Assembly (NCBI GenBank): GCA_009783695.1
Contig: WRCY01000023.1
Coordinates: 1 to 32,224, forward strand
Source of the DNA: Oscillospiraceae bacterium
GTDB taxonomy: Bacteria > Bacillota > Clostridia > Oscillospirales > Ruminococcaceae
Length of the DNA stretch: 32,224 nucleotides
Direction: 5' to 3'
Part shown: positions 3,659 to 29,844 of the stretch, one piece after another
Layout: every line of letters begins with the position of its first letter
Numbering within the stretch: position 1 is the first letter of the stretch
The notes under the pieces: model-generated
Seen by the model: only the letters and a program-made list of their open reading frames with translations
Databases searched by the model: none
What the model was told of the DNA's origin: nothing
Translations under genes and position numbers: made by a program

Positions 3659-3887
3659 ATAAGAACAAAATCTTCTGAACCGGGGAAAACGGTGTTTTCA
3701 TTTCGATGCTGTTAGGAAAGGGCTTAATAAAAAGTATGAGAATAAAATCTTCTGAACCGGGGAAAACGGCGTTTTCATTTCGCTGCTGTTAGGAAAGGAC
3801 TTATTAAAAAGCTTGTAATAAAAGCTTTTAAACCGGGGAAAACGGCGTTTTTATTTCGCTGCTGTTAGGAAAGGACTTGCTAAAAAT
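3659..3887 (+). repeat. Three tandem copies (77, 76, 76 bp) of the GGGAAAACG leader element
   Basis: Units start at 3659, 3736 and 3812. The blocks beginning CGGGGAAAAC are at 3681, 3758 and 3834. Each unit carries a GAAAAC/GTTTTC-type hairpin with a 3-nt loop, then TTTCGNTGCTGTTAGGAAAG and an A-rich tail. Units 1 and 2 are nearly identical; unit 3 directly abuts the glycosidase ATG at 3888. The unit's first bases (ATGAGAATAAAA in unit 2) resemble the gene's own start (ATGGAGATAAAA), suggesting the duplicated segment included the start region. Unit 2 contains an 18-codon frame (3736-3792) with an in-frame GGG AAA ACG. This explains most of the 314-bp gap at 3574-3887. Confidence 0.9.
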
Positions 3888-4847
3888 ATGGAGATAAAAG
3901 GTTTTACATACGGATACGACGGAAGAAGGGGCGGCTTCCGCTCGGAGGATGGGATAAAATCGCAGGAGCTGCTTTATGATATAGGCGTAAACTGGATTTG
4001 CCTTGCGGTCGTGAACAGGCAGAAAAAGTTTTATTCAACAGACATAAGCTTTGACTTCAGCAAAACCCCCACAGACCGCGACATAGCTTTCGCAGTGGAA
4101 AAAGCTCACGCAAAAGGCATAAAAATCTGCCTGAAGCCTATACTTAACTCGGACGACGGCATGTGGCGGGCATACATTTCATTCCCTGACCGTAACATGG
4201 CGGAACAGGATGTATACTGGAAAAAGTGGTTCAAGAGCTACACGGTTTACATGCTGCACTACGCGGAGCTTGCCGAGGAGCTCGGCGCCGAAATGCTCTG
4301 CATAGGCTGCGAAATGTCCGGCACGGAGCAAAAGGACGAGTACTGGCGTAAGCTCATAAAGAAGCTTCGTAAAGTATATTCCGGTAAGCTCGTTTATAAC
4401 ACCAACCACGGCGACGAGGAAAACATCGCATGGTTCGACGCTCTTGATTATATCGGAACGTCTGCGTATTATCAGGTAGGCAGAAACGGCTCCGAAAAAG
4501 AAAAGATGGTTTCAGAGTGGGAAAAAGTCCGCCTGCACTTAAATGCACTATCCCATAAGTTCGGCAGGAAATACATCTTCATGGAAATCGGCTGCCGCTC
4601 CGCAAAAGGCTGCGCGGCGATTCCGTGGGACTTCTCGCACAAGGAGTATCCGTTTTCCGAGGAAGAGCAAGCCGACTTCTACGAGTCCTGCCTCGACGTG
4701 TTCACGAAAGAGCCGAACTTTGCGGGGGTTTTCTGGTGGGACTGGTCGACGTTCATTTATAATGATGAAAAAACCGCAAAGAAAGACATAGGATTCAACA
4801 TACATCTTAAAAAAGCGGAAGAGGTAATCAAAAAGTTTTATAAATAA
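3888..4847 (+). CDS. GH113-like glycoside hydrolase (TIM barrel), possible beta-mannanase type
   Basis: 319 residues, no signal peptide, so probably cytoplasmic. The pattern fits a TIM-barrel glycosidase of the GH113 type. FTYGYDGRRGGF is near the start, followed by strand-like segments ICLKPI, EMLCIGCEMSGTEQ (candidate acid/base Glu) and YIFMEIGCRSAKGC (candidate nucleophile Glu). GVFWWDWSTF sits near the C-terminus, as in retaining clan-A enzymes. The substrate could be beta-mannan oligosaccharide, but this cannot be fixed from sequence alone. A tandem leader array and a sigma-A promoter lie upstream. The AAAGGA Shine-Dalgarno is 12 bases from ATG, longer than usual. aroF follows after an 84-base gap holding another leader copy. 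Confidence 0.65.
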   Translation: MEIKGFTYGYDGRRGGFRSEDGIKSQELLYDIGVNWICLAVVNRQKKFYSTDISFDFSKTPTDRDIAFAVEKAHAKGIKICLKPILNSDDGMWRAYISFPDRNMAEQDVYWKKWFKSYTVYMLHYAELAEELGAEMLCIGCEMSGTEQKDEYWRKLIKKLRKVYSGKLVYNTNHGDEENIAWFDALDYIGTSAYYQVGRNGSEKEKMVSEWEKVRLHLNALSHKFGRKYIFMEIGCRSAKGCAAIPWDFSHKEYPFSEEEQADFYESCLDVFTKEPNFAGVFWWDWSTFIYNDEKTAKKDIGFNIHLKKAEEVIKKFYK

Positions 4848-4852
4848 TAAAA

Positions 4853-4924
4853 ATGTATAAAGCGAACTGTGACAAATCGGGAAAAACGCCGTTTAAATGC
4901 CGATTTGGTGAAGAAAGGATTTAA
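4853..4924 (+). CDS. Possible 23-codon leader ORF upstream of aroF
   Basis: An ATG five bases after the glycosidase stop opens MYKANCDKSGKTPFKC, which continues to end FGEERI-stop. The stop TAA is 7 bases before the aroF ATG, and the frame reads through the aroF Shine-Dalgarno. The same GKT codons and a similar EER end occur in the leaders of pfkA and the DUF6440 gene. No clear ribosome binding site precedes it; entry could be by coupling from the upstream stop. It may be only a by-product of a conserved RNA. Confidence 0.3.
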   Translation: MYKANCDKSGKTPFKCRFGEERI

Positions 4925-4931
4925 TTAAAAT
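4873..4931 (+). promoter_or_regulatory. GGGAAAACG leader element of aroF
   Basis: CAAATCGG (4873-4880) pairs perfectly with CCGATTTG (4900-4907), enclosing an AAAC/GTTT mini-stem. The tail is AAGAAAGGATTTAAT with the Shine-Dalgarno 12 bases from ATG. First G of GGG to ATG is 53 nt. The outer stem differs in sequence from those of other copies but sits in the same place, which suggests a conserved fold. Confidence 0.7.
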
Positions 4932-5954
4932 ATGATAGTAGTACTAAAACAGGGCGCCTCGGAGCAGCAGCGCGAAGACTTAATAGAGTGGATAAAAAGC
5001 CTTGGGCTTGATGTGCATTTGAGCATAGGAAAAATGCAGACGGTACTCGGTTTAATCGGCGATACCGGCAGCATAGACACCGAGCTTATTGAGGGGCTCG
5101 CAATTGTCGAGAGCGTTATGCGCGTCACAGAGCAGTTCAAGAAAGCGAACAGGAAGTTTCACTCTGACGACAGCGTATTTGAAATCAGCGGAGCCGGAGG
5201 GTCCGGTCCTAAGAAAATCGGCGACGGAAACTTCATGATGATTGCGGGGCCCTGCTCGGTCGAGAGCGAGGAGCAGATTTGTGCAATCGCCGAGAGCGTC
5301 AAGGCTTCGGGTGCGCAGATGCTTCGAGGCGGCGCGTACAAGCCGCGCACATCGCCGTACGACTTTCAGGGTATGCGCGACGAGGGAATCGGGCTGCTTC
5401 TAAAGGCGAAAAAGCTCACCGGACTGCCGATAGTCACCGAAATTATGGACTTATCGCATCTTGAGCATTTTTGCGAAGTAGACGTCATTCAAGTAGGCGC
5501 ACGCAACATGCAAAACATGGAGCTTTTAAAACAGCTCGGCAGAACCAACAAGCCGATTCTTCTTAAGCGCGGCTTGTCAAGCACGCTCAAAGAGCTTCTG
5601 CTAAGCGCGGAATACATCATGGCGGGCGGGAACGAGCAGGTTATTCTCTGTGAGCGCGGAATCCGCACCTTTGAAACCGCAACCCGCAACACCTGCGACA
5701 TCGGGGCTGTGCCTGTGCTGAAAGAGCTTTCACACCTGCCTGTAATCGTTGACCCCAGCCACGCCTGCGGAATCGCGCGGTACGTCAGACCGCTGACGCT
5801 TGCGGCGGTAGCGGCGGGCGCGGACGGTATAATCGTGGAAGTGCATAACAACCCCGAAAAGGCAATGTGCGACGGTCCGCAGTCACTGAAGCCCGAGGAG
5901 TTCGCGGAGCTTGTGAAAGCTGTGGAGAGGGTGCGGGCGGCGGTAAATTCGTAG
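4932..5954 (+). CDS. aroF: 3-deoxy-7-phosphoheptulonate (DAHP) synthase, AroA-I beta type
   Basis: It catalyses condensation of phosphoenolpyruvate with erythrose 4-phosphate, the first step of the shikimate pathway. 340 residues. Residues 1-70 form a ferredoxin/ACT-like regulatory domain ([18 protein letters not shown]). The catalytic barrel shows [56 protein letters not shown] and a C-terminal [17 protein letters not shown], all hallmarks of the Thermotoga/Bacillus-type enzyme. The N-terminal domain suggests feedback inhibition by an aromatic amino acid. tyrA follows 35 bases downstream, giving a short route toward tyrosine. Starts at the ATG after the leader element. Confidence 0.95.
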
Positions 5955-5989
5955 AATAAGCATTATACGACCTTAAAATGGAGAAACAC

Positions 5990-6829
5990 ATGACAATAGG
6001 AATCATCGGCTTAGGGCTCATCGGCGGCTCTCTCGCTAAAGCCGTTAAAGAAAACACAAAATATAAAGTTTTATCTTTCGACAAAAACCAAAGCGTGAAC
6101 TTACAAGCAAAGCTTGAGGGCGCGAGCGACGGCATTTTGAGCACGGAAACGCTCGCCGGCTGCGACTTCGTTTTAATCGCGCTCTACCCGAAAGCGGCCG
6201 CGGAATACATAAAATCAAACGTGAAGCTTTTTAAGAAAGATGCTATTGTAATAGACGCGGCCGGAGTAAAGAAAAATATCTGCGAAGCCGCCGCGAAGCT
6301 CGCAAAGAAGCACGGCTTCACTTTTATCGGCGGGCATCCGATGGCGGGAACGCAGAACTCCGGCTTCCGTCACTCACGCAGCACGCTGTTTAAAGGCGCG
6401 CCGATGCTGCTTACGCCTTGCCCCGATGAGAGCATAAAAACCTTGGAGAAAGCGAAGAAGCTTTTTATGGAAATCGGCTTCGGGAGCGTGGTTTTCACCA
6501 CGCCCGAGGAACACGACAGGCGGATTGCGTATACCTCGCAGCTTGCGCACGTTGTATCGAACGCTTACGTAAAAAGCCCCGCGGCATCCGAGCATAAGGG
6601 TTTTTCGGCAGGGAGCTACAAAGACCTTACGAGAGTTGCGCGGCTTAACGAGGAGATGTGGGCGGAGCTGTTCCTGGAAAACCGCGAAAATTTATTGACA
6701 GAAATCGACTTTCTTATAAACAGCCTCGGCGAGTATAAAACAGCGCTTGAAAACAATAATAATGACAAGCTCAAGGCATTGCTGAAAGAAGGCGTAGAAC
6801 GCAAGGAACGCGTGGAACGCGGGAATTAA
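5990..6829 (+). CDS. tyrA: Prephenate dehydrogenase
   Basis: It converts prephenate to 4-hydroxyphenylpyruvate with NAD(P)+, the committed tyrosine step. The start has a Rossmann motif (MTIGIIGLGLIGGSLAKA), then GGHPMAGTQNSGF and an all-alpha C-terminal dimerisation region. 279 residues without an ACT domain. I prefer the ATG at 5990 over 5978, because the bases ATGGAG at 5978 contain the GGAG ribosome binding site six bases before 5990. It is cotranscribed with aroF. No terminator follows; 8 bases after the stop a new TTGACA promoter begins. Confidence 0.95.
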   Translation: MTIGIIGLGLIGGSLAKAVKENTKYKVLSFDKNQSVNLQAKLEGASDGILSTETLAGCDFVLIALYPKAAAEYIKSNVKLFKKDAIVIDAAGVKKNICEAAAKLAKKHGFTFIGGHPMAGTQNSGFRHSRSTLFKGAPMLLTPCPDESIKTLEKAKKLFMEIGFGSVVFTTPEEHDRRIAYTSQLAHVVSNAYVKSPAASEHKGFSAGSYKDLTRVARLNEEMWAELFLENRENLLTEIDFLINSLGEYKTALENNNNDKLKALLKEGVERKERVERGN

Positions 6830-6836
6830 TAAACAC

Positions 6837-6865
6837 TTGACAAATATTTTTGCCCGTGTTATAAT
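6837..6865 (+). promoter_or_regulatory. Consensus sigma-A promoter
   Basis: TTGACA (6837-6842), 17-base spacer, TATAAT (6860-6865): a perfect match. It is pointed into the palindromic element at 6863-6944. No ORF of note follows directly, so it either drives a short RNA made of hairpins or adds to transcription of the metal-exporter operon. Confidence 0.7.
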
Positions 6866-6944
6866 AAAATCACACATCCAAACGCAAAGCGTTTGGCATC
6901 CGCTTTGCGGATGGTTTCGGTAAAGCCGAAACGGTGATTTTATT
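6863..6944 (+). repeat. Cloverleaf-like palindromic element (11-bp outer stem, three inner hairpins)
   Basis: AATAAAATCAC (6863-6873) and GTGATTTTATT (6934-6944) are perfect inverted repeats. Between them are three perfect hairpins: CCAAACGC-AAA-GCGTTTGG, CATCCGC-TTT-GCGGATG and GTTTCGG-TAAAG-CCGAAAC. The outer repeat overlaps the -10 box of the preceding promoter. A further GGCGCG-TT-CGCGCC hairpin lies at 6958-6971. It may be a mobile palindromic element or a small structured RNA. Together with the riboswitch region it fills the 398-bp gap at 6830-7227. Confidence 0.65.
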
Positions 6945-7015
6945 TCAACAATAATTAGGCGCGTTCGCGCCGTCGGCGGCTTTACCGTCGCAATCACCTG
7001 CGGCGCTTGAAATTA

Positions 7016-7024
7016 TGTTATAAT
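7016..7024 (+). promoter_or_regulatory. Extended -10 promoter for the NiCo riboswitch transcript
   Basis: TGT followed by TATAAT (7019-7024) gives an extended -10; no good -35 is seen. The expected transcription start, about seven bases on, falls at the first base of the riboswitch (7031). Confidence 0.5.
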
Positions 7025-7030
7025 ATTTTT

Positions 7031-7116
7031 ACTGAACAGCCGGCGGGTTTTATGCCTGTTGGGCGGGTCGCTGCTGCGACAGCAGGGCTGCTAAAAAGCA
7101 CCTGTGGGACGGTTAA
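7031..7116 (+). ncRNA. NiCo (czcD-type) riboswitch upstream of a CDF metal exporter
   Basis: The segment holds, in order, ACTGAACAG, a GGGCGGGTC block, GCAGGGCTGC with AAAAAGCA, and CCTGTGGGACGGTT. This matches what I recall of the NiCo/czcD motif: a four-way junction with conserved G-rich internal loops that binds cobalt or nickel. The terminal ACTG/CGGT pairing (P1) uses bases that also belong to the terminator stem, the expected ON-switch design. The downstream gene is a cation diffusion facilitator, the usual target. Assigned from memory, not by covariance model. Confidence 0.8.
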
Positions 7117-7136
7117 GTTCCACGGGTTTTTATTTT
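7101..7136 (+). terminator. Rho-independent terminator of the NiCo riboswitch
   Basis: CCTGTGGGAC (7101-7110) pairs with GTTCCACGGG (7117-7126) over 10 bp including two G-U pairs, with a 6-nt loop, followed by TTTTTATTTT. It shares bases with the aptamer's 3' side, so metal binding would prevent its formation. Confidence 0.85.
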
Positions 7137-7159
7137 ATAAAAGAGACAAAGTTAAAATA

Positions 7160-7227
7160 AAATTTTTATGAATCGGGAAAACGTTGTTTTAATTTATCAT
7201 TAATTTAAGAAAGGACTTAATTAAAAT
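7160..7227 (+). promoter_or_regulatory. GGGAAAACG leader element of the CDF gene
   Basis: GGGAAAACGTTGTTTT forms a GAAAAC/GTTTT mini-hairpin. Weak AT-rich pairing surrounds it (ATGAAT with ATTTAT). The tail is AAGAAAGGACTTAATT, Shine-Dalgarno 12 bases from ATG. First G to ATG is 53 nt. It lies between the riboswitch terminator and the gene. The GKT frame here has an internal TGA, so no leader peptide is likely in this copy. Confidence 0.7.
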
Positions 7228-8130
7228 ATGACAAGAGAAGATATAAAACTGGCAAACAAAGTCGAAATCAGAACCGTAGTGATTAATTTTATACTGACAG
7301 CCGTTCAAATCGTAATAGGCATACTGGCGGGCTCCGCTGCGCTCGTTTCAAGTGCGATACATACACTGTCGGACGGCGCGACCACGATTATAGTAATCAT
7401 CGGCGTTAACGTTGCGGGTAAAAAGTCCGATAAATCACATCAGTACGGGCACGAGCGTTTTGAAAGCGTGGCGTCGCTGATTATGGCGATGATTTTAGCA
7501 ATCGTCGGCATCGGCATCGGATACGGCGCAGTCAAGGATATTATCGGCGGCGAGTACGAGCCCATGTCGATGGAAGTTGCCGCGCTTATCATTGCAGGGC
7601 TTACGATTGCGGCTAAAGAATGGATGTTTTGGTATACCCGCGCCGCCGCCAAGAAAATAAACTCCGGCGCGCTAATGGCGGACGCGTGGCACTCGCGTTC
7701 CGACGCACTGGCGACAACCGGCGCATTCCTCGGCATACTCGGCGCAAAAATGGGCTTTCCTGTATTGGACTCGGTTGCGGGACTGATTATCTGCGCATTT
7801 ATCATAAAAACTGCTTTCGATATTTTTAAAGACGCAACTAACCAGATGGTCGATAAGGCCTGCGACCCGAAAACCTTAGAGGAGCTTGAAGCCGTGATTT
7901 CAAAGCAGGACGGCGTAATGGGAATAGATGAAATCAAAACCCGCATGTTCGGCTCGAAAATCTTTGCCGATATTGAAATAGCGGCAAACGGCGAGCTTAC
8001 GCTGCACGAAGCGCACAAGATTGCAGAAAATGTACATGACGCGGTCGAAGCCGCATTCCCGAAAGTTAAGCACTGCATGGTTCACGTGAATCCGGCAAAA
8101 AATCAAACAGACGAACAGGAGCAGCAATAA
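7228..8130 (+). CDS. Cation diffusion facilitator (CDF) metal exporter, likely Co/Ni/Zn efflux
   Basis: 300 residues with six predicted membrane segments and a cytoplasmic C-terminal domain (about 205-295). Metal-site residues typical of the family are visible: HTLSDG in TM2, HSRSDA in TM5, and HQYGHERFES in the loop between. CDF proteins export divalent metals from the cytoplasm in exchange for protons. The NiCo riboswitch upstream points to cobalt or nickel as the controlling metal and probable substrate. The stop overlaps the acetyltransferase ATG by one base (TAATG), so the two are translationally coupled. Confidence 0.92.
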   Translation: MTREDIKLANKVEIRTVVINFILTAVQIVIGILAGSAALVSSAIHTLSDGATTIIVIIGVNVAGKKSDKSHQYGHERFESVASLIMAMILAIVGIGIGYGAVKDIIGGEYEPMSMEVAALIIAGLTIAAKEWMFWYTRAAAKKINSGALMADAWHSRSDALATTGAFLGILGAKMGFPVLDSVAGLIICAFIIKTAFDIFKDATNQMVDKACDPKTLEELEAVISKQDGVMGIDEIKTRMFGSKIFADIEIAANGELTLHEAHKIAENVHDAVEAAFPKVKHCMVHVNPAKNQTDEQEQQ

Positions 8131-8549: not shown

Positions 8550-8550
8550 A

Positions 8551-11931: not shown

Positions 11932-11941
11932 CTCAAAGCAC

Positions 11942-11970: not shown

Positions 11971-12007
11971 AATTATGGAAAAGTTTGAAAATGGAGAAGT
12001 ATTAAGT

Positions 12008-12076
12008 TTGAAACAAAATACAACTGAAACGGGGAAAACGCTGTTTTCATACACCTTTGGTGAAGAAAGGACTTAA
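12008..12076 (+). CDS. Possible 22-codon leader ORF upstream of pfkA (TTG start)
   Basis: A TTG, 11 bases after a GGAG, opens KQNTTETGKTLFSYT after the initiator, ending FGEERT-stop. The TAA lies 7 bases before the pfkA ATG. The frame shares GKT-LF and EERT with the leader of the DUF6440 gene. Weak start and short length keep confidence low. Confidence 0.3.
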   Translation: MKQNTTETGKTLFSYTFGEERT

Positions 12077-12083
12077 TGAAAAT
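12026..12083 (+). promoter_or_regulatory. GGGAAAACG leader element of pfkA
   Basis: GAAAAC-GCT-GTTTTC hairpin, then a second CACC-TTT-GGTG hairpin, then AAGAAAGGACTTAATG. First G of the GGG before AAAACG to the pfkA ATG is 52 nt; Shine-Dalgarno spacing is 12 bases. Confidence 0.75.
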
Positions 12084-13201: not shown

Positions 13202-13229
13202 TAACGGATTATCCGTTAAAAATAAAATT

Positions 13230-13342
13230 ACAGAGTAGGAATCCCTGCGTTCGGATTTATCCGAGGAGTGCCGTTTGAACGGAGAGTTGTCAGACGGACG
13301 AAAAGCATTTATGCTTGCGGTAGGTTTTCCGCATCTCGCTGT
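13230..13342 (+). ncRNA. Tetrahydrofolate (THF) riboswitch upstream of folT
   Basis: The segment has, in order, ACAGAGTAGG, TGCGTT, a GGATTTATCC hairpin, GGAGTG, CCGTTTGAACGG, GACGGACGAA, AGCATTTATGCT, GCGGTAGG and CCGCATCTCGCTGT. These correspond to the conserved AGAGUAG, GCGUU, ACGAA, GCGGU and CCGC elements I recall for the THF-I aptamer, with ACAG/CTGT closing P1. The downstream gene is an ECF S component of FolT type, the classic target. Assigned from memory of the motif. Confidence 0.8.
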
Positions 13343-13393
13343 ACATGATAATTAGGAATATAACTTCAGCGGAAATATCACCGCTTAGTTGAA

Positions 13394-13510: not shown

Positions 13511-14155
13511 ATGAAGTTTTTGGCGATGTTCCGCGATTCCGCAAGGGAGTTAAAAAGTCCGAGGTGTCTGGCGACAACAGGAATACTATGTGCGCTTTTT
13601 GTAGTGCTGAACATTTTTGCGCCGGGGTTCGGCGAAACGCTGCGGATAACATTCGGTTATCTCGCGCTCGCGACAATCGGAATGTTGTACGGGCCGGTTG
13701 TTGCTGTTTTAGCGGCGGTTCCCTGCGATGTGCTTGTAGGATTTTTAGGGCCGTATGCAATGATTCCCGCATTTATTCCCAACAGAATGTTGGAGGGGTT
13801 TATTTACGGCATTTTCCTGTACGGGCTCGGTTCGCGCGGGACGGATAACAACCGGGGCGCATTATGGGCGGCATGGCAGGTAATGAGAATTACTCTGTCA
13901 AGATTTATAATAATGATGCTGTGTTACTTTATAATTAATTCTTTTATAGTTTTAATTTTTATTCTGCCGCCGGGCAGGGCGGCGGAAATAATGTCGGAGC
14001 AGTCGTTCTGGGCATGGGCATGGTTTCGTTCGGGATGGAAGAATATTGCGCAGCTTCCTGTTGACTTAGTACTGATGTTCACGCTGCTGCCTGTTATAAA
14101 CAAAGCCTATCAAAGGGCGCTGCGCGGCTTTAGCAGGGAAAGGAAGAGCGGATGA
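13511..14155 (+). CDS. folT: ECF transporter S component, folate (FolT-type)
   Basis: 214 residues with about five to six membrane segments. S components bind the vitamin in the membrane and work with a shared EcfA-EcfA'-EcfT module, which is not encoded here. TGILCALFVVLNIF, ITFGYLALATIGMLYGPVVAVLAAVPCDVLVGFLGP and the C-terminal RSGWKNIAQLPVDLVLM are typical of the FolT/QueT-like group. The THF riboswitch upstream makes folate the likely substrate. AAGGAGG lies eight bases before ATG. The stop overlaps proC by four bases (ATGA). Confidence 0.88.
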   Translation: MKFLAMFRDSARELKSPRCLATTGILCALFVVLNIFAPGFGETLRITFGYLALATIGMLYGPVVAVLAAVPCDVLVGFLGPYAMIPAFIPNRMLEGFIYGIFLYGLGSRGTDNNRGALWAAWQVMRITLSRFIIMMLCYFIINSFIVLIFILPPGRAAEIMSEQSFWAWAWFRSGWKNIAQLPVDLVLMFTLLPVINKAYQRALRGFSRERKSG

Positions 14156-14952: not shown

Positions 14953-14966
14953 TTTTTATAAACCTA

Positions 14967-16001: not shown

Positions 16002-16027
16002 TAATGTGCAATACGCTACCCAAGAAT

Positions 16028-16105
16028 TTAACAGTTTTCTCTGCGGAATCGGGAAAACGAAACTATTCAATCAGCACTGCTTAAGAAAGGACTATAGGTA
16101 AAATT
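16028..16105 (+). promoter_or_regulatory. GGGAAAACG leader element of rplT
   Basis: GGGAAAACG begins at 16051, 55 nt before the rplT ATG. TTAACAG (16028-16034) pairs with CTGCTTAA (16077-16084) with one bulge, and GTTTTC upstream pairs with GAAAAC, instead of the downstream GTTTT used by other copies. Tail AAGAAAGGACTATAGG. The GKT frame through it ends in TAA four bases before ATG. Confidence 0.6.
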
Positions 16106-16519: not shown

Positions 16520-17290
16520 ATGAAAAACAAAACTAAGCCTGTTGTTGTTTTTATGGTAATCTTCATTGCAGTATCGCTGTTCCCGCCCGCAGTTTTTGCG
16601 AACTCGGCAGAACCGCCGTTGTTTACTGTGATGGTGACCAACGCGCCTGAAGATTTGCAAGTGTCTTTGCGTTTTGCTGACGGAAAGCAATTTGGTGCAA
16701 ATGTTATCAGGAAAAACCCGGCAAACGATACATTTTATCATTTTTATAGCGATGGCGGTCTTTTTTATATCGGGCGCGCAGAATTAAATGAAGCAACGCT
16801 TGCCGTAACGACAGGCGGCGAAACGCTGGAATTTCCTCTGCTTGAAATACAAAATACTTACCACAGGTTCATGACTTTAAACCTTTCAAACCGCACTCTC
16901 ATACCCGGTACGCCATTAGTACGCAATACAATTCTGGTTGTTATGAGAATTGTTTTTACGTTACTGATTGAAGGTTTGATTTTTTTAGCTTTCGGTTTTA
17001 GAGGAAAAAGAAACTGGATGGTTTTTCTTGTCGTGAATTTAATTACGCAGGGTGGGTTAAATATAATCCTAAGCAATCCCGAAATGGGGAGTTACTGGGG
17101 TTTAGTCTATTTAGGACTGGAAATTATTATATTTATTGTTGAAATTATTGCGTTTACTATTTTGTTGAAAAGAGAAAAATCAAAATGGTGGCTTAAAGGC
17201 TGGAAAAAACCGCTGTACGCCATCATTGCAAACACAGCGAGTCTTATCGCGGGCGCATATCTAATCGGCGCGTTTATTGTTTACTATTAA
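16520..17290 (+). CDS. Membrane protein with signal peptide and four C-terminal membrane segments, unknown
   Basis: 256 residues from the ATG at 16520 (AGG seven bases upstream). The N-terminus MKNKTKPVVVFMVIFIAVSL followed by FPPAVFANSA reads as a signal peptide with an AxA-type cleavage site. About residues 30-130 form a soluble extracytoplasmic region rich in beta strands. Four hydrophobic segments follow (starting near NTILVVMRIVFTLL, NWMVFLVVNLI, YWGLVYLGLEIIIF, and PLYAIIANTASLI). I do not recognise the family. It stands between the ribosomal operon and the methyltransferase gene with a 17-base gap to the latter. Its third-position base use looks more AT-rich than its neighbours. Confidence 0.7.
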   Translation: MKNKTKPVVVFMVIFIAVSLFPPAVFANSAEPPLFTVMVTNAPEDLQVSLRFADGKQFGANVIRKNPANDTFYHFYSDGGLFYIGRAELNEATLAVTTGGETLEFPLLEIQNTYHRFMTLNLSNRTLIPGTPLVRNTILVVMRIVFTLLIEGLIFLAFGFRGKRNWMVFLVVNLITQGGLNIILSNPEMGSYWGLVYLGLEIIIFIVEIIAFTILLKREKSKWWLKGWKKPLYAIIANTASLIAGAYLIGAFIVYY

Positions 17291-17307
17291 TATCCGAAAG
17301 GCTCAAG

Positions 17308-18117
17308 ATGATTATTACAAGCCGCCAAAACCCCCAAGTTGCTCACTTCCGCGCTTTAATGCGCGACCGAAAAGCCCGCCTTGAAAGCGGGCTGTTTGCC
17401 GTCGAGGGTGAAAAATTATTTCATGAAGCTGTAGCCTCCGGCTTAAAACCCGAGCAAATTCTCTTAACGGAAAAGTTTTCACAAAAAAATGACAATTTCT
17501 GTAAAAAAGCCGCAAATTTATGCAATATAGACATAATTAGCGACGATTTGGCTGAATATATTTCTGATACAAAGTCGCCGCAGGGTGTGTTTTTTTCACT
17601 TCCCCTGCTTGACAAATTTTCAAAATTGAGTACACTTATTAATAGTACCGGCACGAGCCGCGCGTCTGCTTCTCAAACGACGGCGGCAAGATTTCGTGTA
17701 ATCGCTTTAGATGAAGTTCAAACTCCGGGGAATGTCGGCGCGATTATACGCAGCTGCGACGCTTTCGGAGTGGATGCGCTGCTGCTTTCGGAGAGCTGCG
17801 CCGACATACACTCGCCGAAAGTAATAAGAAGCGCGATGGGCTCGGCGTTTAGGCTTCCTGTTTACCGCGGCGGGCTCGTGGAGTTGAAAACGCTTGGCTT
17901 TACAGTCATCGGCGCGGCTTTAAGCGATAAGGCGGAAAAGCTCACGGATTTCAGCTTCCCTGAAAAGAGCGTTGTTGTAATCGGCTCGGAGGGTGCAGGA
18001 ATAAGCGCGCAGGTACTCGCTTTATGCGACAGTGAAATTTATATACCCATTAAAAATGCAGAGTCTTTGAACGCGGCGGTCGCTGCTTCGATTATCATAT
18101 ACGAAATGAGGAAATAA
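17308..18117 (+). CDS. TrmH/SpoU-family RNA 2'-O-methyltransferase
   Basis: 269 residues. Residues 1-100 form the RNA-binding N-terminal domain (ITSRQNPQVAHFRAL ... GLFAVEGEKLFHEAV). The SPOUT catalytic domain carries motif 1 (LDEVQTPGNVGAIIRSCDAFGVDALLL), motif 2 (VVVIGSEGAGIS) and motif 3 (IPIKNAESLNAAVAASIIIYEM), which form the trefoil-knot SAM site. It probably methylates a ribose in 23S rRNA or tRNA; the target is not deducible. topA begins seven bases after its stop. Confidence 0.92.
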   Translation: MIITSRQNPQVAHFRALMRDRKARLESGLFAVEGEKLFHEAVASGLKPEQILLTEKFSQKNDNFCKKAANLCNIDIISDDLAEYISDTKSPQGVFFSLPLLDKFSKLSTLINSTGTSRASASQTTAARFRVIALDEVQTPGNVGAIIRSCDAFGVDALLLSESCADIHSPKVIRSAMGSAFRLPVYRGGLVELKTLGFTVIGAALSDKAEKLTDFSFPEKSVVVIGSEGAGISAQVLALCDSEIYIPIKNAESLNAAVAASIIIYEMRK

Positions 18118-18124: not shown

Positions 18125-20242
18125 ATGTCTGATTTAATCATCGTGGAGTCACCTGCAAAAGCAAAAACAATCGGGAAGTATCTCGGCAAAAATTTTAAAG
18201 TCATGGCTTCGGTGGGGCATATCCGCGACCTTCCGAAATCCAAGCTCGGCGTAGATATAGAGCATAATTTCGAGCCAATTTACGAGAATAAAAAGGATAA
18301 AGCCACACTCATTAAGGACTTGAAGAAACAAGCGGATAAGTCGGGTTCCGTCTACCTCGCGACCGACCCGGACCGCGAGGGCGAGGCGATTTCATGGCAC
18401 TTGGCGCATATTTTGAACCTTGACGCCGCAAAACCCATCCGCGTAACTTTCAACGAAATTACGAAAGCAGGCATTAAAGACGGTATGGCACGACCGCGCG
18501 GGCTCGACATGGGACTTGTAAACGCACAGCAGGCACGCAGAATTCTCGATAGAATAGTAGGTTATATGCTGAGTCCGTTTTTGTGGAAAAAAGTCCGCCG
18601 CGGACTGTCGGCAGGGCGTGTGCAGTCGGTGGCCGTGCGGCTTATCGTCGACCGTGAAAAGGAAATCGAGAGCTTCCAAAGCCGCGAATACTGGAGCGTT
18701 GACGCATCGCTGCTCGCTTCGGGAAGCAAGAAAGCTTTCCCCGCAAAACTCACAGAAGTTGACGGAGGGAAAATAGAACTGACCGGCAAAAAAGATGCGG
18801 ATAAAATTTTAAAGCGTCTTGAGGGTGCGGAGTTTGAAGTTTCCGCAGTTAAAAAATCCACGCGCAAAAAGCTCCCCGCGCCGCCGTTCACGACATCTAC
18901 CTTACAGCAGGAAGCTTCGCGCAAGCTGTTCTTCAACTCGCGGCGAACCATGAAGACCGCGCAGGAGCTATATGAGGGTGTCGAGCTGCCTGAGCACGGC
19001 GCAATCGGGCTCATAACCTATATGAGAACCGACAGCCTGCGGATTTCAAATGAGGCGAAGCAGGCGGCAAAAGAGCTCATTGAACAGAAGTTCGGAGCCC
19101 AGTATGTTTTTGCGGGTGAACGGGTTTTCAAGTCTAAGGCTAATTCACAGGACGGGCACGAGGCAATCCGCCCGAGCGTGCCGCATATAAGCCCCGAGCA
19201 GATAAAAGGTCACGTTTCAAGTGACCAGTATAAGCTTTACAAGCTAATTTGGGAGCGGTTCATGGCGAGCCAGATGGAAAATGCGCAGCTCAACACTGTT
19301 TCGGCGGATATTACCGCCAACGGCTGTTTGTTTAAGGCAAACGGTTTCACTGTCAAGTTCGACGGTTTTATGAAGCTGTACGTTGACGGGAGTGAAAATG
19401 AAAACTCCGATGAAACAGGCACGACGGCGCTGCCCGCGCTCACGAAAGGCGAGGTGCTCAAAGTTGAGAGCGTAGAGGGTAACCAGCATTTTACGCAGCC
19501 GCCCGGGCGCTTCACTGAGGCGAGCCTGATTAAAGCGCTCGAGGAAAACGGCATCGGCAGACCGTCAACGTATGCGCCGACAATTACCACAATCCTTGAC
19601 AGACAGTATGTCGAAAGAGCGCAGAAGCAGCTTAAACCCACGATTTTGGGGCGGGTAATCACCGATTTATTACAGGAGCACTTTGATAATATAGTTGACA
19701 CGAAATTTACCGCGCAGATGGAAACCGACCTCGACAAAATCGAACACGAGAACGAGGAGTGGACTGTGGTGCTGCGCGAGTTTTACGGCGAGTTCGAGAA
19801 GACGCTCACCAAAGCAGAAAAGGAAATGGAGGGCAAGCGGGTGAAAATCCCCGACGAACCTACCGACATTCCGTGTGAGCTGTGCGGGAAGATGCTGTCG
19901 ATAAAAATCGGCCCTTACGGGAAATTCCTCGGTTGTTCCGGCTTCCCCGAGTGCAAGCACACTAAAAAAATTGTCAACGAGGCGGGCGGCGAATGTCCGG
20001 GCTGTACGGGCAAAATGATAAGCAAAAAATCCAAAAAGGGCAAGCCTTATTTCGGCTGCGAGAATGTTAAGGACTGCGGTTTTATGACGTGGGATACGCC
20101 TGTTTCCGAGCAGTGCCCGACCTGCGCCAAGAAACTGTTCCGCAAAGGCGGCAAAAAAGGCAAGCTCTACTGCGCGGCGGAGAAGTGCGGGTATGAGGCG
20201 GAAGCGGTTGATAATGAGCAGGCGGAGGGGGCAGAAGTTTGA
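18125..20242 (+). CDS. topA: DNA topoisomerase I (type IA)
   Basis: It relaxes negative supercoils. 705 residues. TOPRIM domain at the start (LIIVESPAKAKTIGKYLG) with DPDREGEAISWHL; active-site tyrosine Tyr299 in GLITYMRTDSLRIS; GIGRPSTYAPTI in the cleavage core. Three C-terminal Cys4 zinc modules follow: CELCGK...CSGFPEC, CPGCTG...CENVKDC and CPTCAK...CAAEKC. The zinc domains contact single-stranded DNA and, in some bacteria, RNA polymerase. The stop lies in GTTTGA, which overlaps the possible TTG of the next leader ORF. Confidence 0.97.
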   Translation: MSDLIIVESPAKAKTIGKYLGKNFKVMASVGHIRDLPKSKLGVDIEHNFEPIYENKKDKATLIKDLKKQADKSGSVYLATDPDREGEAISWHLAHILNLDAAKPIRVTFNEITKAGIKDGMARPRGLDMGLVNAQQARRILDRIVGYMLSPFLWKKVRRGLSAGRVQSVAVRLIVDREKEIESFQSREYWSVDASLLASGSKKAFPAKLTEVDGGKIELTGKKDADKILKRLEGAEFEVSAVKKSTRKKLPAPPFTTSTLQQEASRKLFFNSRRTMKTAQELYEGVELPEHGAIGLITYMRTDSLRISNEAKQAAKELIEQKFGAQYVFAGERVFKSKANSQDGHEAIRPSVPHISPEQIKGHVSSDQYKLYKLIWERFMASQMENAQLNTVSADITANGCLFKANGFTVKFDGFMKLYVDGSENENSDETGTTALPALTKGEVLKVESVEGNQHFTQPPGRFTEASLIKALEENGIGRPSTYAPTITTILDRQYVERAQKQLKPTILGRVITDLLQEHFDNIVDTKFTAQMETDLDKIEHENEEWTVVLREFYGEFEKTLTKAEKEMEGKRVKIPDEPTDIPCELCGKMLSIKIGPYGKFLGCSGFPECKHTKKIVNEAGGECPGCTGKMISKKSKKGKPYFGCENVKDCGFMTWDTPVSEQCPTCAKKLFRKGGKKGKLYCAAEKCGYEAEAVDNEQAEGAEV

Positions 20243-20304
20243 AAATAAACACAAATGACCCCGGGAAAACGTTGTTTTTGTTCGTTTGTGAAGAAAGGAC
20301 TTAA
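20239..20304 (+). CDS. Possible 21-codon leader ORF after topA (TTG start)
   Basis: TTG overlaps the topA stop and follows GGAGGGGG by about ten bases. The frame encodes KINTNDPGKTLFLFVC after the initiator and ends EERT-stop, eleven bases before the DUF6440 ATG. The GKTLF and EERT elements match the pfkA leader frame. Of the leader frames this one has the best ribosome binding site. Confidence 0.3.
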   Translation: MKINTNDPGKTLFLFVCEERT

Positions 20305-20315
20305 TGGAAATAATA
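20250..20315 (+). promoter_or_regulatory. GGGAAAACG leader element of the DUF6440 gene
   Basis: A nine-pair outer helix joins CACAAATGA (20250-20258) and TCGTTTGTG (20282-20290). Inside it is AAAAC-GTT-GTTTT. The tail is AAGAAAGGACTTAATGG. First G to ATG (20316) is 53 nt, the same as in unrelated genes. Confidence 0.75.
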
Positions 20316-22055: not shown

Positions 22056-22078
22056 GGTTTTACTCCTTTTTAATAAAA

Positions 22079-22091: not shown

Positions 22092-22096
22092 CGTTA

Positions 22097-22126
22097 ATTA
22101 TAACACAGCTAATAGCTATATGTCAA
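22097..22126 (-). promoter_or_regulatory. Sigma-A promoter of the - strand small gene
   Basis: On the - strand, TTGACA (22126-22121), an 18-base spacer and TATAAT (22102-22097). Operator 2 lies in the spacer and operator 1 just after the start site, an arrangement expected for a repressed promoter. Confidence 0.65.
22107..22118. promoter_or_regulatory. Operator 2 (AGCTA-A-TAGCT)
   Basis: Second symmetric AGCT-based site, lying between the -35 and -10 of the - strand promoter. Centre-to-centre distance to operator 1 is about 27 bases. Confidence 0.55.
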
Positions 22127-22145
22127 TAGGTTTGGAGAAGTTTTT

Positions 22146-25081: not shown

Positions 25082-25158
25082 ATCTTAAAAAATTTAATCT
25101 GCTGTAAGGGGAGATAAATTTTTGAAATTCGTCAACGTATAGAAGGAATATAGAAATA

Positions 25159-28100
25159 ATGTTTTTTAAATCACTTGAAATTCACGGATTTAAATCTTTT
25201 CCCGATAAAACAGTATTGAATTTCGATTCAAAAATGACAGCACTCGTCGGCAGCAACGGTAACGGGAAAAGTAATATCAGCGACGCTTTGCGCTGGGTCA
25301 TGGGGGAGCAGGGCGCGAAAACTTTACGCGGCGATAAGATGGAAGACGTGATTTTTCACGGCACCCAGAAGCGAAAGCAGATGGGTTTTGCGCGGGTTTC
25401 GCTGCTGATTGACAATGCTGACCGCGCACTGGGCACCGGCACCGATGAGGTTTGCATTACCCGCAAGTTATACCGTGACGGCGAAAGCGAGTATTTAATC
25501 AACGGCATAAAGTCGCGTCTAAAGGACATTCACGAGCTTTTGATGGGTACAGGGCTTGGCCGCGAGGGTTATTCAATCGTCGGGCAGGGACGCGTCGCGG
25601 AAATTATAAACAGCAAGGGGCGGGAGCGCCGCGAGATTTTTGAAGAAGCGGCGGGCGTCACAAAATTTCTGCATAAAAAAGAGCAAGCGGAGCGTGAGCT
25701 TTCCCGTGCGAACGATAATATTCTCCGTCTTTTGGATATTTCAAAAGAGCTTGAGGACAGATTACCGGTATTAGAAAAGCAGTCAGAGAAAGCAAAAAAC
25801 GCAGTTGTTTTAATCGAAAAGGAAAAGAGAATTGAAATTTCCGTCAGTGTCGCAGACCTTAAAAGAATTGATGAAAGTATGCTTGACACTGAGAATAAAA
25901 TATTACAAAACGAGGGTGAATGTGAGCATTATGACCGCGAAATAATTCTGCTTGAGGAGCAGAATGAACATAATTTAAATGAGAAAATGCAGCTCTCCGC
26001 AAAGATGAGCGAGCTCAGCAGAATCAACGAATCTGCGCGCGATGAAATCGCGGAAACCGAAACGAGGACAGCGGTTTTCGAGAATGATATTGTGCATAAT
26101 AATGGACGCGTAGAGGCGCTTCGCGAGCAGATTGAGGGGAGTAAAAAAAGTGCGGATGAGCTTGAAAATCAAGTTGCCGCATTAAATACGGAGATTGAAA
26201 ATAAAGGCAGAGAACTGCATGAAATCAATATAAAAGCAGACGAGCAAAAAGGGCTCCTTGAACAGATTTCCGAGGAGGGGGCGGCGCTTGACGGCGATGA
26301 AAAAGAGCTCGACCGCGAGATTGCGCAGCTTACCGCAAAGCGCACGGAAGCGAGAATTTCACTGTCTAATTCCGAGCAGGCGTGGGCGGATTTAAAGAAC
26401 CAGCTCGAGGAAATTTTAGAGCAAACCGAGAGCCATGAGGGCTTGATTAATAGTTATAAAATAAAGAAAAATGAACTGCAAAAAGCAGCAGAAAAAGCAG
26501 GCGAAGAGAAGCAAGAAAACGAGAATAAGCTCAGCGGCTATTCACGACTGCTTGAATCAAAACGCAGCAGACTTGAAGAGAGCGAACAGGACTTTTCAAA
26601 ACTGCGGATTCTGCATGACCGGAAGAAATCCCGCTTCGATGTTTTGTCGGATGTTGAACGGAATATGACAGGGTATTTCAGCAGTGTTAAGGCGGTTATT
26701 TCGGCTGCAAAGAACGGGCAGATAACCGGAATTCACGGCACTGTTGCAGACATAATTAAAGTCGGCGGGAAGTATGGTGTGGCGATTGAAACCGCGCTCG
26801 GTTCCGCACTTCAAAACATCATTGTCGAAAGCGAAGAAACCGCAAAAAGATGCATACGTTTCTTGAAAGAAAACAGCGCGGGACGCGCAACGTTTCTGCC
26901 TTTAACTTCAATAAAAGGAAGAGGGTCAGAGCTGTCGTCGTTTCAGGATTTAACTGATGAGGAAGGCTATTTGGGGCTCGGCCACGAGCTCGTTTCATTC
27001 GGTGAGAAGTACAGCGAAATAATAAAATCGCTGCTCGGCAGAACAGTAATTGCAGAGGACATTGACACCGCTACATTTTTGGCGAAAAAGTATAAATATA
27101 AGTTTAAAATCGTAACACTCGACGGACAGGTTATAAATGCGGGCGGCTCGTTTACGGGCGGCTCAGTTAAAGAAACTGCAGGTATAATCAGCAGAAAACA
27201 AGAAATAGAAACGCTTGGCAGGGAGCTTGAAAAGCTTAGCGAGAAGCTGACGCATGCAAAAAGCGAGCACGCAATGCTTATTGCGGAAGTAAATAAAATG
27301 GCAATCGAAACTGAGGGCTTTAAAGAAAAGGCTGCGGGATTATTAAACGAGGAAGTTAAGCTTTGCGCGGAAATCGGCGGCATTGAGAATTTAATCGCAC
27401 AGTGCAAGGAGCAGGCGGAAAACGCGCAAATCATAATTGACCGCAACAAAAGCCAGATGGCGGCGCAGGAGGCGCTGATTCAAAAGTGCGGCGAGATTCT
27501 TGAAGAAACGGCTTGCGCGATTAAAGAGAACGAAGAAAAAGCCAATAAACTCGGCGTTTTACAAGCGACATCGGCAGAACGCAGGAACAAGGCAAGCGAT
27601 GAAATAGCGAGCTTAAACTTGGAAACACTGTCTGTAAGAAAGGATATAGAAAGCCTTGAACAGCAGATTCAAAGTATACTTGAAAACAAGCAGCGGCTCG
27701 GCGAAGACAGCGGAAATCTCGAAAAGGAAATTGAGAATTTAAATGAAAAAAATATAGAGCTCGGTGAATTAATCAGGCAGAATAAGCAAAAAATAGAGCA
27801 AATCACTGCAAGCTTTTCGGGAAACCGCGGAGAGATAGAGCAGTCTGCGGTACGCATCAGTGACATTGAAAGAAAAATCGCGGAAATCAATAAGGAAATC
27901 CGTGAAAAAAGCGCGGAAAAAGAGCGTTTTTCTAATGCGCTGGTTCTTGCAAAGGAGCGCAAGTTTACCGCCGAGGCGGACATAAACAGAATCAAGGACG
28001 AGCTTTGGGAAAAGTACGAGCTCGCGCCGAGCGAAGCGGCGGAGCTTGCCGAGCCGATTGCGAACATGAGGGCGGCGAAAACAGAGCTCGTCGAGGTTCG

Positions 28101-28743
28101 TAAGGCAATCAGCGCGCTCGGAAACGTGAATTTTGCGGCGATTGAGGAGTTTATTGAAGTTGGCGAGAGATATAAAATATTACACGAACAGCTGAGTGAT
28201 GTTGAAAATTCAAAGGCTGAACTTGAACGGTTAATTTCAGAATTGACCGTAAACATAAAAGAAAAATTCCTTGAAAGCTTTAACGCGATTAATTATCAGT
28301 TCGAGCGGGTTTTCACGGAAATATTCGGCGGCGGGAAAGCGAGATTGGAGCTTACTGACCCCGATGATGTGCTCGGCTCGGGGATTGAAATTTTCGCTGC
28401 GCCTCCGGGTAAGGTAATCAAGAATTTAATCTCGCTTTCGGGCGGCGAGCAGGCGATGGTTGCGATAACAATTTACTTCGCGATTCTGCTGCACAGACCG
28501 ACGCCGTTCTGCATGCTTGACGAGGTTGACGCCGCGCTTGACGAGGTGAACATTATCAAGTACGTGACTTATTTGAAACGTTTTTCAAAACGGACTCAGC
28601 TTATGCTGATTACGCACAGGCGCGGGACAATCGAGGGCTGTGACGTGCTTTACGGGGTTTTTATGCAGGAGAAAGGCGTTTCAAGACTGCTCAAGCAAGA
28701 GCTTGCTGACGGCTTTGAAGAATATGATGTGGAGATAATTTAA
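25159..28743 (+). CDS. smc: Chromosome segregation protein SMC
   Basis: 1194 residues. It is the ATP-driven condensin that loads and extrudes DNA with ScpA and ScpB. N-terminal head with Walker A (GSNGNGKSN, Lys37) and RGDKMEDVIFHGTQKR. Two long coiled coils surround a hinge at about 515-680 (IHGTVADIIKVGGKYGVAIE ... GGSFTGGS). The C-terminal head has the signature LSGGEQ near 1093 and Walker B FCMLDEVDAALDE with Asp1121-Glu1122. AAGGA lies 11 bases from ATG. ftsY follows with a leader copy between. Confidence 0.97.
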   Translation: MFFKSLEIHGFKSFPDKTVLNFDSKMTALVGSNGNGKSNISDALRWVMGEQGAKTLRGDKMEDVIFHGTQKRKQMGFARVSLLIDNADRALGTGTDEVCITRKLYRDGESEYLINGIKSRLKDIHELLMGTGLGREGYSIVGQGRVAEIINSKGRERREIFEEAAGVTKFLHKKEQAERELSRANDNILRLLDISKELEDRLPVLEKQSEKAKNAVVLIEKEKRIEISVSVADLKRIDESMLDTENKILQNEGECEHYDREIILLEEQNEHNLNEKMQLSAKMSELSRINESARDEIAETETRTAVFENDIVHNNGRVEALREQIEGSKKSADELENQVAALNTEIENKGRELHEINIKADEQKGLLEQISEEGAALDGDEKELDREIAQLTAKRTEARISLSNSEQAWADLKNQLEEILEQTESHEGLINSYKIKKNELQKAAEKAGEEKQENENKLSGYSRLLESKRSRLEESEQDFSKLRILHDRKKSRFDVLSDVERNMTGYFSSVKAVISAAKNGQITGIHGTVADIIKVGGKYGVAIETALGSALQNIIVESEETAKRCIRFLKENSAGRATFLPLTSIKGRGSELSSFQDLTDEEGYLGLGHELVSFGEKYSEIIKSLLGRTVIAEDIDTATFLAKKYKYKFKIVTLDGQVINAGGSFTGGSVKETAGIISRKQEIETLGRELEKLSEKLTHAKSEHAMLIAEVNKMAIETEGFKEKAAGLLNEEVKLCAEIGGIENLIAQCKEQAENAQIIIDRNKSQMAAQEALIQKCGEILEETACAIKENEEKANKLGVLQATSAERRNKASDEIASLNLETLSVRKDIESLEQQIQSILENKQRLGEDSGNLEKEIENLNEKNIELGELIRQNKQKIEQITASFSGNRGEIEQSAVRISDIERKIAEINKEIREKSAEKERFSNALVLAKERKFTAEADINRIKDELWEKYELAPSEAAELAEPIANMRAAKTELVEVRKAISALGNVNFAAIEEFIEVGERYKILHEQLSDVENSKAELERLISELTVNIKEKFLESFNAINYQFERVFTEIFGGGKARLELTDPDDVLGSGIEIFAAPPGKVIKNLISLSGGEQAMVAITIYFAILLHRPTPFCMLDEVDAALDEVNIIKYVTYLKRFSKRTQLMLITHRRGTIEGCDVLYGVFMQEKGVSRLLKQELADGFEEYDVEII

Positions 28744-28784
28744 TAAACGAGCTTGTTAAATTTCGGTTTAAGATTTAAAATAAA

Positions 28785-28849
28785 TTGCACACAACCGGGG
28801 AAAACGAGTATCTCATTTCTCGTTAGTGCAAGAAAGACATGGTAAAAAG
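28785..28849 (+). promoter_or_regulatory. GGGAAAACG leader element of ftsY
   Basis: TTGCAC (28785-28790) pairs perfectly with GTGCAA (28826-28831), and AACGAG pairs with CTCGTT inside. Both stems differ in sequence from the other copies while keeping a stem in this place. First G of the GGG before AAAACG to ATG is 52 nt. A GKT frame (KINCTQPGKTSISF...) ends in TAA four bases before ATG but has no obvious start. Confidence 0.7.
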
Positions 28850-29773
28850 ATGGGTTTATTCAGTAAAATAAAAGAGGGATTAAGCAAGACCAAAAGCGCG
28901 TTTTCTGATAAGGTTGACGGCATTATCGGCGCGTTTACTAAAATTGACGACGACTTTTTTGAGGAGCTTGAGGAAATTCTGATTCTTTCGGATTTGGGTG
29001 CGCGAACCGCCTTCGATATTTGCGAAAGGCTGCGTGCGGAAACAAAGCGCGGGCGGCTTACCGAACCGCGTGAAATAAAGCTGCTTCTGCGCGATATAAT
29101 TGCTGAATTAATCGATGGCGGGAGCGAGCTTTCTCTCACAACAACGCCGTCTGCAATTCTTATAATCGGCGTAAACGGTGCGGGAAAAACCACTACAATA
29201 GGGAAGCTTGCCAATAACTTGAAAGCAGACGGCAAGCGTGTTTTAATAGGCGCGGCGGACACGTTCCGAGCAGCGGCGATAGAGCAGCTCGGCGAGTGGG
29301 CGGAGCGCGCCGGCGTGGATATTATCAAGCATAAAGAGGGAAGCGACCCCGCATCTGTGGTTTTCGACGCATGCAAGGCGGCTGTCGCGAGAAAATCCGA
29401 TGTGCTTATAATCGATACGGCGGGGCGGCTTCATAACAAAAAACATTTGATGGACGAGCTTAAAAAAATCATAAAAACATTAAATCAACAGCTGCCCGAA
29501 TGTGCAGTGGAGACGCTGCTGGTGCTTGATTCGACGACGGGGCAAAACGCGGTAAACCAGGCAAAGCTCTTCGGTGAAACCGCCGATATAACAGGCATAG
29601 TGCTGACAAAGCTTGACGGAACTTCAAAAGGCGGGATTGTGATTCCGATTAAAAACGAGCTCAGAATCCCTGTGAAATTTATCGGCGTGGGCGAGAAGAT
29701 TGACGACCTGCAGCCGTTTGACGCGATAATGTTCGCGGATGCGCTGCTTGGTTTCGGTGACGAAAGAGTTTAA
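28850..29773 (+). CDS. ftsY: Signal recognition particle receptor FtsY
   Basis: GTPase that docks SRP-ribosome complexes at the membrane. 307 residues, a short form without a long acidic A domain. N domain at 1-90; G domain with P-loop GVNGAGKTTTIGKLA at about 107, DTFRAAAIEQL, VLIIDTAGRLHNK, VLDSTTGQNA, TKLDGTSKGG and KFIGVGEKIDDLQPF. The start ATG at 28850 directly follows the leader; the GTG at 28826 lies inside the leader stem and is unlikely. Typical smc-ftsY order. Confidence 0.96.
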   Translation: MGLFSKIKEGLSKTKSAFSDKVDGIIGAFTKIDDDFFEELEEILILSDLGARTAFDICERLRAETKRGRLTEPREIKLLLRDIIAELIDGGSELSLTTTPSAILIIGVNGAGKTTTIGKLANNLKADGKRVLIGAADTFRAAAIEQLGEWAERAGVDIIKHKEGSDPASVVFDACKAAVARKSDVLIIDTAGRLHNKKHLMDELKKIIKTLNQQLPECAVETLLVLDSTTGQNAVNQAKLFGETADITGIVLTKLDGTSKGGIVIPIKNELRIPVKFIGVGEKIDDLQPFDAIMFADALLGFGDERV

Positions 29774-29844
29774 AATAAAATATATGTTGATAGGTAAGGC
29801 GTTATTTTAATTTCTTGTTAGCGGAGAAAGGGTTTAATGAAAAT
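29774..29844 (+). promoter_or_regulatory. Divergent GGGAAAACG leader element of rdgB
   Basis: The block reads GGTAAGGCGTTATTTTAATTTC, in place of GGGAAAACGTTGTTTTAATTT in the CDF leader, with no gap needed to align them. The tail is GAGAAAGGGTTTAATG. First G to ATG is 52 nt. In the GKT frame the changes give Gly-Lys-Ala with Gly and Lys kept by synonymous changes. The upstream TTTAAAATAAAA also matches other copies. Confidence 0.55.

Follow-up and report, generated by a model that had tools for sequence, protein, structure and literature searches.

The 32,224-nt stretch of Oscillospiraceae bacterium DNA analysed here (contig WRCY01000023.1, hereafter the window) carries ten copies of a short repeat upstream of eight unrelated genes, which a preliminary description of the window had singled out as a leader element held at a fixed distance from the start codon. 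The ten copies are part of a repeat family with a unit of about 80 nt and hundreds of copies in the genome. Very probably this is a small mobile repeat family, new copies of which were inserted at start codons, brought their own Shine-Dalgarno sequence (SD) and multiplied in tandem. Between the two roles that had been proposed, a genome-wide control element and a mobile cassette providing a ribosome binding site, the evidence backs the cassette: start sites are empty in relatives, native SDs are displaced, and near-identical copies are dispersed over different loci.

A repeat family in front of start codons

All ten copies reported for the window were found, with the first G of their GGG at 3683, 3760, 3836, 4879, 7175, 12032, 16051, 20263 and 28798, and with GGTAAGGCG at 29793 in the rdgB copy. 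Distances from this G to the start codon, re-read from the sequence, agreed with those given: 52 nt for the GH113, pfkA, ftsY and rdgB genes, 53 nt for aroF, the cation efflux gene and the DUF6440 gene, and 55 nt for rplT. The eight gene identities agree with Pfam (GH113, DAHP synthase, cation efflux, PFK, ribosomal L20, DUF6440, SRP54-type GTPase and Ham1). The copies are as follows.

3654..3731, + strand: copy 1 of the three-copy tandem array before the GH113 gene; boundaries approximate
3732..3808, + strand: copy 2 of the GH113 array
3809..3887, + strand: copy 3 of the GH113 array, carrying AGGAAAGGA before the GH113 gene (start 3888)
4849..4931, + strand: copy before the aroF-like DAHP synthase gene (start 4932); 5' end approximate
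7149..7227, + strand: copy before the cation efflux gene (start 7228), directly 3' of a NiCo riboswitch; 5' end approximate
12004..12083, + strand: copy before pfkA (start 12084)
16019..16105, + strand: diverged copy of CGAAACTATT type before rplT (start 16106); 5' end uncertain
20235..20315, + strand: copy before the DUF6440 gene (start 20316)
28770..28849, + strand: copy between smc and ftsY (start 28850); 5' end approximate
29766..29844, + strand: strongly diverged copy before rdgB (start 29845); profile E 0.0017, under the cut-off used for counting

The window corresponds to a single contig (C23) in a genome of 2.23 Mb (G000), and the suspicion that the element extends genome-wide was borne out. 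The 9-mer GGGAAAACG alone is only mildly enriched, occurring 27 times in the window with up to one mismatch, against a mean of 13.8 and a maximum of 22 in 100 shuffles. The pattern GGGAAAACGNNGTTTTNATTT, with up to three mismatches, is found at 309 places in the whole genome (175 forward, 134 reverse), compared with 4 for the reversed pattern. Furthermore, a profile built from 56 strict copies gave 298 matches at E ≤ 1e-3 in a 748-kb sample, which consists of the window and 40 stretches partly chosen from contigs with strong matches, so that the density is biased upward.

The unit of about 80 nt runs from AAGTTTGAAA through the core GGGGAAAACG to AAGAAAGGACTTAATGAAAAT. Its order is AAGTTTGAAAATAAA, a variable stretch, the core TGAATCGGGGAAAACG, either NTGTTTTCATT or AAACTTTTCATT, a further variable stretch and the tail GTGAAGAAAGGACTTAATGAAAAT, followed by ATG. 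Among unrelated copies the mismatch is 0.23 in GGGGAAAACG and 0.47–0.65 elsewhere, partly because the matches were anchored on the core.

Position relative to genes was examined in 296 of the 298 matches, those near contig ends or lacking a clear core having been dropped, with simple open reading frames (ORFs) as gene calls. Another copy follows in tandem in 97 of the 296, and the period lies between 74 and 82 nt in 81 of 87 adjacent pairs. In 180 of 199 cases an array-terminal copy is followed, at 40–73 nt from GGG, by the start codon of an ORF spanning 50 codons or more; at random positions such an ATG is found in 20%. The spacing is 52 or 53 nt in 94 of the 180, with a second peak at 44 nt (16 copies). 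The repeat stands before 177 such genes in the sample, which holds 695 predicted ORFs of at least 80 codons. Orphan copies with no gene downstream are represented by locus L032 (minus strand, 15478) and 18 other terminal copies, one of them followed by a terminator-like hairpin. An unusual array at locus L045 (about 17260–17560) has in each unit the core and a TTGAAA..TATAAT-like promoter, with no SD in the units read.

Empty sites, young copies and displaced Shine-Dalgarno sequences

Occupancy of orthologous start sites was compared between G000 and three relatives at E ≤ 1e-3, a threshold that misses diverged copies such as that of rdgB. With G023, whose FtsY is 91% identical to that of G000, 98 orthologous starts could be compared: 25 are occupied in G000 only, none in both, none in G023 only and 73 in neither. 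With G012 (FtsY 90% identical) 4 starts are occupied in both genomes, 11 in G000 only, 2 in G012 only and 35 in neither. The corresponding numbers for G053 are 0, 4, 3 and 18, and one of the three G053-only starts is that of rdgB, which in G053 holds a copy of that genome's own subfamily and in G000 the copy below the cut-off.

The genes of the window illustrate these differences. The repeat between smc and ftsY in G000 is missing from the ftsY leader of G012, G017, G023, G053 and G056. In G023 the GH113 orthologue has no element and its leader ends in AAAGAGGTAACGAC before the ATG, that of the aroF-like gene lacks the element and ends in CGAAAGGATTTAATAAAA, the cation efflux orthologue likewise lacks it, and GGAGAAGAAAT abuts the ATG of pfkA in its absence. 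Flanks upstream of G000 copies were aligned with the G023 leaders in eight usable pairs; in five the best alignment placed the end of the flank 0–4 nt upstream of the start codon in G023, with 10 to 17 of 20 letters matching, two had another copy as flank and one remained unaligned.

The examined loci of G012 contain 17 full-length copies, of which 15 directly abut a start codon triplet (two of these, L087 and L095, in arrays); the remaining two are an array member (L092) and a copy with no evident gene (L166). Thirteen of the 15 are exactly 80 nt long and have a median pairwise identity of 98.8% (minimum 90.0%), at different loci and with flanks that appear unrelated by eye. The left boundary of the G012 copies, AAGTTTG, is abrupt, and the right boundary is the ATG. 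At two unlinked G012 loci, L095 and L098, the copies have a palindromic upstream repeat in common, and one of the two shows a short deletion. At L091, L096, L153, L198, L200 and L201 the 5' part of the copy is missing and nothing but the SD tail is left, in some cases behind unrelated hairpin repeats; these copies could have been truncated when they were inserted or have lost the rest afterwards.

First copies whose 5' end fitted a pattern (95 in G000) were screened for an SD motif (GGAG, GAGG or AGGA) upstream. The motif is present within 18 nt of the 5' end in 54% of the 95, and in 11, 16, 7 and 8% in the next four 18-nt bins upstream (p 1.5e-10 for the nearest two bins). The same signal is seen in G012 (70% of 23 copies, against 9–13% in farther bins) and in G053 (56% of 9 copies, against 0–22%). 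Two examples lie in the window: at pfkA a displaced native SD, GGAGAAG, is found at 11993–11999, 4 nt upstream of the 5' end of the copy, and at the DUF6440 gene GGAGG is found at 20224–20228, 6 nt upstream. Since the old SD lies just upstream of the copies, the repeat would enter between the native ribosome binding site and the ATG and supply a new one. Before the DUF6440 gene the stop codon of topA, TGA at 20240–20242, falls inside the copy and is the TGA of the repeat's own AAGTTTGA (20235–20242), and the insertion seems to have replaced the end of the topA ORF.

Terminal and non-terminal copies were compared in 260 of the 296. AAAGG is kept in 93% of 171 terminal and in 76% of 89 non-terminal copies (p 0.0003), as expected if the last copy of an array alone serves the gene. 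In contrast, the GGGGAAA core does not differ between the two groups (74% against 81%, p 0.28). The exact tests for the displaced SD, AAAGG and the core used counts rounded back from printed fractions.

Probable insertion at start codons and the rival explanations

Comparison of copies, loci and genomes, all at the level of sequence, reveals the position and orientation of the repeat, the empty sites, the displaced SDs, the young near-identical copies, the arrays and the better preservation of the SD in terminal copies. They are consistent with a mechanism in which a new copy would enter in sense orientation directly before a start codon, after the spacer of the native SD and before the ATG, without duplicating its target. 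This would push the native ribosome binding site about 80 nt upstream and out of use, and the repeat's own AAGAAAGGA would take over, so that the gene should remain translated. The inserted copy could then multiply by tandem duplication, the last copy of the array alone serving the gene. Translation probably starts from the SD of the repeat, the effect on the host would be close to neutral, and some machinery presumably copies the repeat to start codons.

The insertion mechanism, selection for SD spacing, or the two together could produce the exactness at the ATG; a true preference for insertion at the ATG is favoured over selection for spacing because no young full-length G012 copy has a gene start at another spacing. 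An improbable extension is that the repeat recognises start codons as such, being copied through RNA with its target picked on mRNA or on an open transcription complex at the translation start, and inserted base-exactly at the ATG with no further DNA target. Were this so, bacteria would possess a SINE-like element that targets the starts of translation. More generally, a repeat that lands between ribosome binding site and ATG with a replacement SD can reach core genes (rplT, ftsY, pfkA) at little apparent cost. A mobile element would then have rewritten the translation signals across a large part of the genome since the sister species split, which raises the question of how a three-base start codon is struck with single-base precision.

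Several observations weigh against insertion of a mobile repeat at start codons. Nineteen of the 199 terminal copies have no downstream start, the spacing varies among the older G000 copies, and a displaced SD is seen in only one of six G006 copies. Four starts carry the repeat in G000 as well as in G012, which may reflect inheritance or independent insertion. Plain decay of dead copies does not account for the better-kept core GGGGAAAACG. A search for a mobilising gene, which covered the RVT_1 reverse transcriptase and Y1 transposase, found none. Finally, terminal inverted repeats were not found in the G012 copy examined (at most 6 of 16 matches at any offset), nor was a target site duplication in 15 G012 copies (none observed at lengths 3–8; one observed at length 2, 1.0 expected), and therefore the repeat fits no standard transposition class.

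The presence of neither enzyme follows carriage of the repeat. By one model and in incomplete genomes, RVT_1 is absent from G000, G020, G006, G045, G003 and G056, present once each in G012, G053 and the non-carrier G017, and present twice in G023. Y1 transposase was not found in G000, G012, G053, G006 or G045 and was found once in G020 (E 2.5e-5); as it does not follow carriage in these six carrier genomes, a repeat linked to IS200/IS605 or REP/RAYT was rejected. A miniature inverted-repeat transposable element (MITE) was likewise rejected for the G012 copies, which show neither terminal inverted repeats nor target duplication. No longer autonomous version was recognised by eye among the half-element matches.

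We also considered a cis-regulatory leader owned by the host, in which a protein, small RNA or metabolite would bind the GGGGAAAACG core and control the translation of a large regulon, the copies having spread by selection for co-regulation. The core is indeed conserved across the subfamilies of different species. RNA structure was examined in several ways. The preliminary description had read the outer stems as covarying and had noted a GAAAAC-NNN-GTTTT mini-hairpin, and neither reading held. RNAalifold on 85 copies gave no pair, and no pair exceeded z 3.5 among 1978 column pairs of 144 non-redundant copies. Permutation of partners within subtypes (171 copies) gave the outer stem a marginal z of 2.0 (25 of 1000 permutations), while the mini-hairpin showed no excess over swapped partners (z 0.6). 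Among the three helices in this run only a 5' pairing stood out, that of TTGAAAAT with the ATTTTCA after the core (z 3.8, 0 of 1000), two control pairings giving z 0.6 and -0.1. By eye, other species keep this 5' pairing with other letters, for example TTGAAAGT with ACTTTCAA in G006. The fold energy of natural copies, -10.81 kcal/mol, compares with -10.04 (sd 0.16) for half-swapped copies, a small excess distributed among several weak pairings. The 5' pairing has modest support, and no fold is claimed for the repeat.

Against such a leader, column covariation on a 45-row family alignment was not above shuffles, and the core is kept as well in non-terminal as in terminal copies. Moreover, close species show an almost entirely different occupancy of the same genes, rich carriers alternate with poor ones within one clade, the target genes of the window are unrelated to each other, and a phage-like contig also holds copies. 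We therefore consider a regulatory leader unlikely. Known leaders in Rfam (riboswitches and ribosomal-protein leaders) resemble the repeat in lying in the 5' leader beside the SD; the repeat differs from them in that the window copies have no Rfam match at gathering score, in its differing occupancy of the same genes in close species and in the negative outcome of the alignment-based covariation tests. The earlier statement that no named motif fits is upheld, as the window copies have no match in Rfam 15 at curated gathering thresholds. At E ≤ 5 the segment 3600–4960 gave two matches far below the gathering score and at chance level (one, STnc430 with E 3.7, over the array).

A third reading, a true member of the type of the mycobacterial interspersed repetitive units (MIRUs), would have a short ORF in the repeat whose stop overlaps the start of the gene, with coupled translation. 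Its attraction is that in the G012 subfamily the tail ATG and a gene starting with ATGA give ATG-AAA-ATA-TGA, a 4-nt overlap with the start, and 16 of 21 young copies are followed by ATGA; such a 3-codon ORF may exist in this subfamily. However, of 169 non-redundant copies 74 have an open long frame across the repeat, near the 65.3 (sd 4.9) of column-shuffled copies, and a conserved ORF through the repeat was rejected. The stop of this frame overlaps the gene start by 4 nt in only 4 of the 150 genes tested (out of 177), G000 does not conserve the tail ATG (in an ungapped alignment 36% of its copies have G at that column), and the repeat has its own SD. Membership of the MIRU type is accordingly judged very unlikely.

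By description, nevertheless, MIRUs are the closest parallel in logic. Passages of PMC12548453, citing Supply et al. 1997, present them as short repeats, apparently mobile, which enter at start codons, have an ORF coupled at -4 nt and spare expression; their tandem arrays are evident from PMC3635867, which speaks of minisatellites with copy number variation. The present repeat is also short, also lies at start codons and also forms tandem arrays; whereas a MIRU has a coupled ORF, it carries an SD and no conserved long ORF. The lineages are unrelated and the comparison rests on the description of MIRUs, not on their sequence. We would file the repeat as a new variant of the MIRU kind by its logic, with different means, and not as a MIRU; the question of single-base precision is the same for both.

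That the copies are merely the generic A-rich SD consensus of the lineage, alike by convergence, has practically no chance of being correct. The AAGAAAGGA is an ordinary SD, the 3' tail is at times seen alone, and the aroF leader of G023 resembles the repeat tail. Yet the element extends over 80 nt and includes a core further upstream, and the close relative G023 has a single match at E ≤ 0.001 among the 150 candidates scored. The genome-wide excess over the reversed pattern, the occupancy differences and the near-identical copies at different loci refute it.

Other small repeats differ more from the family described here. According to passages of PMC3049150, the pneumococcal BOX, RUP and SPRITE elements are small interspersed repeats, judged parasitic, with an enrichment between genes that converge, and MITEs are marked by terminal inverted repeats and target duplications. 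The present family likewise consists of small interspersed repeats, but these lie before start codons and have neither feature. Titles and abstract openings returned by a literature search held no description of this repeat family.

Distribution among genomes and side observations

Two models were used to follow the mobile repeat across genomes. A sequence model (R1) gave matches at E ≤ 0.001 in 9 of 60 genomes of the genus. Among 15 genomes, with 150 candidates scored in each, matches numbered at least 200 in G000, 150 in G006, 133 in G012, 123 in G053, 70 in G020 and 30 in G045, and at least 6 in G003, 3 in G056 and 1 in G023; G017 had 0, and five others had 0 among the candidates scored. 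A broader model (R2) gave matches in 6 of 40 genomes of the genus, with at least 135 in G000, 127 in G006, 113 in G012, 68 in G020, 13 in G003 and 1 in G023 among 122 candidates scored in each. In wider sets, shallow searches matched G000 alone, among 247 genomes of 126 genera for R1 (18 candidates scored per genome) and among 295 genomes of 148 genera for R2 (16 candidates scored per genome).

In an FtsY tree of 29 genomes, rooted for drawing only and without G006 and G003, the eight closest genomes group in a single clade that mixes rich, poor and empty ones, and the nearest neighbour of G000 and G012 is the almost empty G023. The best G023 match is a diverged copy before an open frame, which we take to be that of ATP synthase alpha. 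G053 has its own subfamily, some copies of which carry an extra hairpin; at L151–L153 an inserted hairpin, CTTCGTTT..AAACGAAG, lies between core and SD.

The Rfam matches in the window are a THF and a NiCo riboswitch, neither on a copy of the repeat. The THF riboswitch (13229–13343) precedes an ORF at 13511, and the NiCo riboswitch (7022–7114) shares the leader of the cation efflux gene with a repeat copy.

The pfkA copy had no match in the phage and plasmid collections searched. Two viral contigs of one IMG genome hold copies of the repeat. The 9.3-kb one (L205, IMGVR_UViG_2820453354_000003) has ten matches at E ≤ 1e-4 between 1353 and 8121, some in an array of three or four. It is phage-like, with nine of ten tested ORFs matching phage protein families that include major head, head-tail adaptor and major tail proteins.

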